A stretch of DNA of 32,611 nt from Pseudomonadota bacterium. Lineage in GTDB: Bacteria > Pseudomonadota > Gammaproteobacteria > Burkholderiales > Ferrovaceae. The notes below the pieces were generated by a model. It ran no database searches, was not told where the DNA came from, and saw nothing but the letters and a program-made list of their open reading frames with translations. Shown piece after piece: positions 26,708 through 29,843 of the stretch. How positions within the stretch are numbered: the stretch's first letter is position 1; the number at the start of each line of letters is the position of its first letter. Location: assembly GCA_021808815.1 (NCBI GenBank), contig JAKBAT010000005.1:1-32611 (forward strand). Reading direction: 5' to 3'. Position numbers and translations under genes: made by a program.

Positions 26708-27244
26708 TCAGAACATCGGTTTGATCAGGGGTGTCGGAATGACCGGAGCGGCCATCGGAGCAGGAGCGCTGACAGGCTTGGGTGCAGACGGCTTTTTCGG
26801 TGCGGCAGCCTTCTTCACGGCAGGCTTCTTGGGGGCAGCGGCCTTTTTGGCAGCCGGTTTCTTGGCGGCTGGTTTCTTCGCTACGGCCTTTTTGGCAGCC
26901 GGTTTCTTGGCGGCTGGTTTCTTCGCTACGGCTTTCTTGGCGGCCGGTTTCTTCGCTACGGCTTTCTTGGCGGCCGGTTTCTTCGCTACGGCTTTCTTGG
27001 CAGCTGGCTTCTTCGCGGCGGCTTTCTTGGCGGCCGGTTTCTTCGCTACGGCTTTCTTGGCAGCCGGCTTCTTCGCGGCGGCTTTCTTGGCGGCCGGTTT
27101 CTTCGCGGCAGATTTCTTGGCTACGGCTTTCTTGGCGGCCGGTTTCTTTGCGGCGGCTTTCTTGGGGGCTGCGGCCTTCTTAGGGGCTGCGGCTTTCTTG
27201 GCGGCCGGTTTCTTGCCGGCGGATTTCTTCTTGGCTGCTACCAT
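26708..27244 (-). CDS. Histone H1-like / AlgP-like Lys-Ala-Pro repeat DNA-binding protein
   Basis: 178 aa, tandem [10 protein letters not shown] units, Pro/Ala-rich C-terminus ([25 protein letters not shown]). Confidence 0.88.
26835..27135. repeat. In-frame tandem repeats (about 15/30-bp unit) encoding [10 protein letters not shown]
   Basis: Plus strand unit cttcgctacggctttcttggcggccggttt repeated; plus a roughly 45-bp duplicated block (cctttttggcagccggtttcttggcggctggtttcttcgctacgg) at about 26841-26930. Confidence 0.85.
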
Positions 27245-27462
27245 GTATTGACTCCTTAGTCGTGTTGATCGGTTGTTCCAGATCGTTCGTGCAACGCACT
27301 ACCAAGTGGGACCAATCGATCTTTCATCCGATGACCCACGCAAAGGGCACTTGACAACATCAGTGCATGCCTCTTGGTGAAAGGGATTCTATTTCAGAAA
27401 ACTGCAGATGGGCGTTTTGAAAGCAGGTTATAAGGAAATATTTTGTCTGCTATGTCCGGATT

Positions 27463-27481
27463 TAGTAGCGTGTCGATACTA
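27463..27481. promoter_or_regulatory. Putative third copy of the MarR-type operator, upstream of the histone-like gene
   Basis: TAGTAGCGTGTCGATACTA vs TAGTATCGAnTCGATACTA: 16/18 defined positions. Confidence 0.6.
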
Positions 27482-27512: not shown

Positions 27513-28793
27513 CTAGGAGGTGCTGGAGGGAGGATCGAGGGGCCATTCGTTTTCAAACAGCGCCGGGATCGTTTCACGGCGCCGAATGACCCGCGCCGAA
27601 TGGCCGTCCACCAGGATTTCGGTCGGACGTGGGCGGGCATTGTAGTTCGAACCCATGGAGGCACCATAGGCGCCGGCGGAAAGGATGGCCAGCAGGTCGC
27701 CCGCCGAGACGGCGAGTGTCCGGCTGGATCCCAGGATGTCACCGGTTTCGCAGACGGGGCCCACGACGTCCATGGGAAAGGGTGTGCCCTGGCCTTCCTG
27801 CACCGGGACGATTTCATGCCAGGCGTCATACAGTGCCGGGCGGATCAGGTCGTTCATGGCCGCGTCCACAATGGCGAAACGGCGCGCCGGCGAGGATTTC
27901 AGGTACTCGATGCGGGTCAGGAGCAGGCCGCTGTTGCCCACGATGCGCCGCCCCGGTTCCAGCAACAGGCGCAAGCCCGAGCCGCCCATGCGCTCTGCGA
28001 CGGCATGGGCATAGTCTGCCAGCCGGAGGGGGGCTTCCGCGCGATAGCGGATGCCGACGCCGCCTCCCAGGTCCAGGTGGTGCAGCGTGATGCCGGCGCC
28101 GGCAAGGCGCCTTGCCAGGTCGAGCACCTTGTCGAGGGCGGCGACGAAGGGGGAGAGTTCGGTGATCTGGGATCCAATATGACAGTCGATGCCCAGGAGG
28201 CGGATACCGGGCAGTTGCGCGGCATGCCGGTAAAGATCGAAGGCATCCTGGTACGCGATGCCAAATTTGCTTTCCTTCAATCCGGTGGCAATGTAGGGGT
28301 GGGTGCCGGGATCCACGTCCGGATTCACCCGCAATGACACCGGAGCGGTCAGATTCAGCCCGGTGGCCACTTCAGACAGGCGCTGGAGCTCGGCCGGGGA
28401 CTCCACATTGAAGCACAGGACGCCAGCTTGGAGGGCCTGCTGCATTTCGGCGGCAGACTTGCCCACTCCGGAAAACACGACGCGCCCGGGATCTCCGCCC
28501 GCCGCAAGAACACGGCTGAGCTCGCCTCCCGAAACGATGTCGAAACCGGCTCCGAGCCGGGAGAGCAGGTGCAGGATGCTCAGGTTTCCGTTGGCCTTGA
28601 CGGCGTAACAGATGAGGGGATCGAGGCCGGCAAACGCCGTGACGAACTCTTCGTAGGCGGCAACCATGGCGGCCTTCGAGTAAACATAACACGGCGTGCC
28701 ATGGGTTGCTGCGATTTCGGCAAGCGACAGGCCCTCCACATGCAGCACGCCATCGATGCGGGAAAACCCTGGGGGTAGGAAAAAATCGGACAT
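27513..28793 (-). CDS. lysA: Diaminopimelate decarboxylase
   Basis: CYAVKANGNLSILHLLSRLGAGFDIVSGGEL, GIDCHIGSQI, DLGGGVGIRY, EPGRRIVGNSG, CETGDILG. Confidence 0.97.
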   Translation of the reverse strand: MSDFFLPPGFSRIDGVLHVEGLSLAEIAATHGTPCYVYSKAAMVAAYEEFVTAFAGLDPLICYAVKANGNLSILHLLSRLGAGFDIVSGGELSRVLAAGGDPGRVVFSGVGKSAAEMQQALQAGVLCFNVESPAELQRLSEVATGLNLTAPVSLRVNPDVDPGTHPYIATGLKESKFGIAYQDAFDLYRHAAQLPGIRLLGIDCHIGSQITELSPFVAALDKVLDLARRLAGAGITLHHLDLGGGVGIRYRAEAPLRLADYAHAVAERMGGSGLRLLLEPGRRIVGNSGLLLTRIEYLKSSPARRFAIVDAAMNDLIRPALYDAWHEIVPVQEGQGTPFPMDVVGPVCETGDILGSSRTLAVSAGDLLAILSAGAYGASMGSNYNARPRPTEILVDGHSARVIRRRETIPALFENEWPLDPPSSTS

Positions 28794-29174: not shown

Positions 29175-29193
29175 TAGTATCGAATCGATACAA
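29175..29193. promoter_or_regulatory. Putative MarR-type operator O1
   Basis: TAGTATCGAATCGATACAA; core GTATCGA-A-TCGATAC is a perfect 7-bp-arm palindrome. Confidence 0.75.
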
Positions 29194-29214: not shown

Positions 29215-29243
29215 TTGACAATTTTGTATTGAGTCGATACTAT
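29215..29243 (+). promoter_or_regulatory. Sigma70 promoter of the MarR-type regulator
   Basis: TTGACA-N17-TACTAT; -10 ends 6 nt before the ATG at 29250. Confidence 0.75.
29224..29242. promoter_or_regulatory. Putative MarR-type operator O2
   Basis: TTGTATTGAGTCGATACTA; core GTATtGA-g-TCGATAC palindrome with one arm mismatch; overlaps the -10 and spacer; centre 49 bp from O1. Confidence 0.72.
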
Positions 29244-29249
29244 CGAAGC

Positions 29250-29843
29250 ATGCTCAAAAACCCGGTCGTGTTGCTGGACCTGATCAGCCGGCTCGCCAAT
29301 CTCATGCGGTCCGAGTTCCGTCGCGTGGGCAGCGATGAAGGCTTGCAGCCCGTGCACGTCCAGGCTTTGCTGTTCCTTGAACAGGTCAATCGCTTCAGCA
29401 ATACGCCCCAGGCGCTGGCGGAATACCTGGGGCTGACCAAGGGAACCGTCTCACAAAGCCTGCTGTTGCTCGATCGGCGTGGATTGATCGAGCGTTACCA
29501 GGATGAAATCGATCGCCGGGTGGTCCGCTTGCGTCTGAGCACCCTGGGGGAGGCTTTCCTGAACGAATCCAACCCGTCGGGACTCTGGCATACGGCGACC
29601 CGGGACATCAGCGCCAACCGTGTGCGCTACAGCGTTTCGGTGCTGCGGGCTGCCCTGTATGAATTGCAGGGTTTCACGGGGGGGCCTGTCTTCGGCGTCT
29701 GCAATACCTGCGTGTACTGTCAGCGCAAAAGCCAGCGCATTCATCATTGCACCTGGTTCGGCGAGCGTTTGTCGGGCCCGGAAACCCGGAAAATTTGCCG
29801 GGACCAGGTGCCCAAGACCGGTTCCCTTAGCGCTGCAGATTGA
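29250..29843 (+). CDS. MarR-family winged-HTH regulator with C-terminal Cys/His-rich cluster
   Basis: wHTH core [54 protein letters not shown]; tail [39 protein letters not shown]. Confidence 0.85.

Follow-up and report, generated by a model that had tools for sequence, protein, structure and literature searches.

The systems closest to the locus considered here are the regulators of the MarR family, the cysteine-bearing regulator ArnR, and the repeat-rich proteins AlgP and Hc2. Like E. coli MarR, OhrR, and SlyA, the regulator encoded at this locus has a winged-helix domain and palindromic operators, with an operator over its own promoter. Unlike these proteins, it carries a C-terminal extension with four invariant cysteines, and its outside target would be a histone H1-like gene, whose operator is located far upstream of the promoter. 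The proposed system would act in the manner of a self-regulating MarR circuit that has a single conserved target besides its own gene. ArnR from Corynebacterium, whose targets are narK and hmp and in which three cysteines are conserved, is an example of a winged-helix protein that has C-terminal cysteines and is able to carry a [4Fe-4S] cluster (PMC12343034). The likeness to ArnR is one of layout, namely a MarR/ArsR-like winged helix followed by conserved C-terminal cysteines, whereas the present regulator has four cysteines rather than three, with other spacing, and a cluster is here putative. On the side of the target, AlgP (AlgR3) of Pseudomonas aeruginosa is a KPAA-repeat protein that binds DNA and spaces polyphosphate granules (PMC9239181). 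The H1-like protein, which matches Pfam HC2, shares with AlgP and chlamydial Hc2 lysine-alanine-proline repeats resembling the histone H1 tail. However, the 124-aa N-terminal helical domain of AlgP is absent from it, and it differs from both AlgP and Hc2 in having a conserved PLIKPMF-type tail and in lying close to a dedicated regulator.

The regulator and its promoter region are found at the following positions of the window, i.e., the whole stretch of 32,611 nucleotides that was analysed:

29250–29843, plus strand: MarR-type regulator, 197 aa, with a C-terminal Cys4 motif (Pfam MarR_2 and MarR above cut-off)
29215–29243, plus strand: regulator promoter, TTGACA (29215–29220), 17 bp, TACTAT (29238–29243), the best promoter, with 10 of 12 letters
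29175–29193, no strand assigned: operator O1, TAGTATCGAATCGATACAA, upstream of the regulator promoter, 1 mismatch, 48–49 bp from O2 in Ferrovaceae
29224–29242, no strand assigned: operator O2, TTGTATTGAGTCGATACTA, over the regulator −10, 2 mismatches, at the same position in 15 Ferrovaceae loci

The Pfam scores (40 bits for MarR_2, cut-off 27, and 27.7 for MarR, cut-off 24.6) assign a MarR winged-helix domain to the regulator, and among solved structures the profile comparison places ordinary MarR proteins nearest, the match covering the winged-helix part. Cys151, Cys154, Cys167, and Cys183 occur without exception in 17 orthologues, the least similar of which has 51% identity. The structure model (mean pLDDT of 51.8, shallow alignment) was too poor for use. 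As expected for a MarR protein, palindromic operators of about 16–20 bp lie near its own gene, O1 and O2 being conserved in Ferrovaceae. The promoter of the regulator in the 15 Ferrovaceae loci is of the TTGACA-17-TATTAT type with O2 over the −10, and several genomes of family f23 have TTGACT and an operator within the spacer. The end of the −10 is separated from the ATG by 6 bp (window 29215–29250), with the same spacing in relatives, and the regulator mRNA is thus probably leaderless.

The predicted target and the region preceding it contain the following features:

27513–28793, minus strand: lysA, between the two promoters predicted to be regulated (translated; synteny in relatives)
27463–27481, no strand assigned: predicted operator O3, TAGTAGCGTGTCGATACTA, in front of the H1-like gene, 2 mismatches, conserved in place after lysA in seven families
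27439–27445, minus strand: CAAAATA element, at a near-fixed 16–18 bp from the operator end
27386–27391, minus strand: TAGAAT, the probable −10 for the H1-like gene, conserved 5–6 bp before CACCA across families
27375–27379, minus strand: CACCA, where transcription probably starts (start placed from the −10), conserved in every family examined
27242–27380, minus strand: probable H1-like mRNA 5′ leader, containing candidate stem-loops (covariation on a 15-row alignment)
26708–27244, minus strand: histone H1-like protein, 178 aa, with KPAAK repeats and ending in PLIKPMF (Pfam HC2)

The original prediction was that a third copy of the regulator's operator precedes the H1-like gene and that the regulator may control it. 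The 19-base palindrome at 27463–27481 indeed matches TAGTATCGANTCGATACTA at 16 of 18 positions, as had been claimed, and lies between the H1-like gene and the reading frame that, from sequence knowledge, we take to be lysA. Its distance to the regulator start (29250) is about 1.78 kb, close to the 1.7 kb given originally.

The H1-like protein scores 75.5 bits against HC2 (PF07382, cut-off 40), a type of score that biased repeats can inflate. Against NF038053 (Histone H1-like DNA-binding protein, Burkholderiales type) it reaches 69.4 bits, below the cut-off of 80, and it is therefore not filed as that equivalog. The PLIKPM-type tail (window 26708–26728) is kept in Ferrovaceae and f23 while the repeats vary widely.

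The part of the prediction that did not hold concerns the promoter. TATAAC, proposed as the −10 of the H1-like gene, is present in the letters (27432–27427, minus strand), but its columns vary among relatives and it is probably ruled out, the conserved element being TAGAAT. The order upstream of the H1-like gene is the operator, CAAAATA 16–18 bp on, TAGAAT, and CACCAAG. AAAATA is invariant in all 15 Ferrovaceae sequences, with CAAAT-like forms in f23 and g7; as an IHF site or a separate −10, CAAAATA fits poorly by eye. No −35 hexamer is found at 16–18 bp from TAGAAT, the best candidate in the window having 2 of 6 letters; across families the best has 1–3 of 6 in most, and 4 of 6 in two f43 sequences. 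In f23 (L153, L155, L156, L159), a TTGACA stays at exactly 31 bp from the operator; since its distance to the −10 varies, it does not qualify as an ordinary −35.

The centre of O3 lies about 93 bp upstream of the CACCA start region in the window, and 92–94 bp in most clades. In parts of f23 the distance is 72–73 or 83 bp, in f35 it is 84 bp, and in f43 and f50 (the f50 sites being weak) it is 99–101 bp, which is off the helical phase. The distances of 72–73, 83–84, and 92–94 bp are apart by about whole helical turns; with three of the five distance changes near whole turns and two not, helical phasing is suggestive only.

On the basis of these sequence features, we consider it quite likely that O1–O3 are operators of the four-cysteine MarR-type regulator, and that its conserved regulon would consist of the regulator gene itself and the H1-like gene, whose putative DNA-packing product is very probably under its control. 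In the proposed circuit, the regulator would bind O1 and O2 at its own promoter, and self-repression would be expected because O2 lies on the −10 of a strong promoter. It would also bind O3, centred ~93 bp upstream of the CACCAAG start region. The position of the operator thus differs between the two promoters, being over the −10 of the near-consensus regulator promoter in one case and far upstream of the −35-less H1-like promoter in the other. With an operator near −93, the mode would likely shift from blocking of RNA polymerase to upstream action, and in combination with the lack of a −35, upstream help fits better than blocking. The O3-bound regulator would then most likely help RNA polymerase at a promoter whose −10 is good but which lacks a −35. 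Within this reading we lean toward activation of the H1-like gene from O3, although the absent −35 does not prove it. The Cys4 motif probably carries a metal or Fe-S group that would tune DNA binding.

It is possible, although we regard it as rather unlikely, that the regulator at O3 instead represses the H1-like gene, either through a loop over lysA to O1/O2, 1.7 kb off, or by obstructing an activator that acts at CAAAATA. Most MarR proteins act as repressors, and both the distance between O3 and O1/O2, which is kept because lysA lies in between, and the near-fixed distance of CAAAATA from O3 are as such a mechanism would have it. However, O3 overlaps the core promoter in no family seen, and a promoter that has no −35 is what would be expected if help is needed.

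The gene order argH, regulator, lptM-lysA, site, and H1-like gene is shared by the Ferrovaceae loci and recurs in six further betaproteobacterial families (f17, f23, f29, f35, f43, and f50), in which the site sits between lysA and a lysine-alanine-rich gene. Of the 43 stretches between lysA and the H1-like gene, 28 have a best site with no more than 3 mismatches and 37 one with no more than 4, and in none does the best site exceed 5; since the picking of a best site always yields something, the figures at up to 3 mismatches are the meaningful ones. The consensus over the 43 stretches is about TRGTATCGANTCGATACYA. In f50, two weak operator-like sites ~74 bp apart are found between lysA and the H1-like gene (L166, L167), the nearer of which is also present in L163. 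In most genomes O3 is near the stop codon of lysA, which would be in line with O3 serving another target, such as lysA itself or a small RNA that lies unannotated between the two genes. This is nevertheless very improbable: downstream of O3, the conserved −10 and start region indicate the H1-like gene as the target, and O3 is at a near-fixed distance from these elements but 19–148 bp from the lysA end.

The regulator (match at E ≤ 1e-25) is present in 41 of the 399 genomes of the order. The strict pattern occurs in 18 of these 41 and in 7 of the other 358 (Fisher p about 9e-15, a test that treats the genomes as independent, although relatedness among them means that the counts do not reflect separate events). 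In G142, which is among the seven, the sequence close to a contig end is the same as that of G304, a member of its genus, and this exception may be due to an assembly gap. In the Ferrovaceae genus g2, neither a regulator orthologue nor the site was found. Five g2 genomes retain an H1-like gene (28–31% identity) after lysA, one of them ending in PLIKPMT, and these genes are without the operator, CAAAATA, and CACCAAG; that they would be true H1 orthologues rests on position, composition, and tail. The site is also absent near more distant regulator paralogues in other contexts (L175–L181). Palindromes of this type are frequent in MarR and other families, and another transcription factor could in principle be the main binder of a site whose sequence is merely common with those of the regulator. 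We consider this very improbable, given that the presence and absence of the site track this regulator and that the same palindrome occurs at the regulator's own promoter. The data thus support O3 as a predicted conserved operator going with the Cys-cluster regulator, and the link to the H1-like gene stands, in that the site is conserved, tracks the regulator, and precedes this gene in seven families, the TATAAC promoter being the part that fell. The case for the H1-like gene as the target is far stronger than what could be put forward originally.

The claim that such a match rarely occurs by chance is also borne out. At up to 3 mismatches the window contains exactly three matches (27463, 29175, and 29224), compared to none in 100 dinucleotide shuffles of the window. 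The genome-wide search that had been suggested as a check gives only three sites, O3 and the two before the regulator, in the host assembly (1,688,863 bp, about 90% complete; a Ferrovaceae betaproteobacterium), and the reversed control pattern has no match across it. In 15 Ferrovaceae sequences, the O3 columns are 86% identical, compared to 54–58% in the flanks. The probability that O3 is a chance match is negligible, despite the 2 mismatches of the host copy, as about 3.4e-7 matches per position are expected at up to 3 mismatches, the place is conserved in seven families, and the site and the regulator are absent together. A wider regulon was considered and rejected, the other matches inspected in Ferrovaceae being mostly within coding sequence (those of L187 and L193 are intergenic).

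The probable leader preceding the H1-like gene is conserved. On the 15-row alignment, on which the structure was also chosen by eye, 92% of the cells pair; 18 cells are changed on both sides, compared to 0–3 when the partners were slid. Most of these compensatory changes split genus g4 from the rest, and they therefore represent few events. Single-sequence folding energies are not consistently low. Rfam gave no match at the gathering score for five relative loci, and for the window stretch, searched to E 1, only microRNA families at O1/O2, far below their gathering scores. The putative structured leader is thus a lead and not a result.

No published account of this regulator–target pair, nor of a regulator for this group of H1-like proteins, was found in the open-access literature, and little is known about how the amount of histone H1-like proteins is controlled in bacteria. 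A regulator that is dedicated to a single conserved target besides its own gene, and that probably senses through cysteines, makes this question directly testable and would tie the packing of DNA to a redox or metal signal. Only tentatively would we extend the reading to an ancient dedicated two-gene circuit in betaproteobacteria. Its MarR-type sensor, with a metal or Fe-S group at the Cys4 motif, would repress itself and, acting from an upstream site in helical phase, activate the H1-like nucleoid protein; a structured mRNA leader would add a second layer, and DNA packing would be set by a redox or metal signal.
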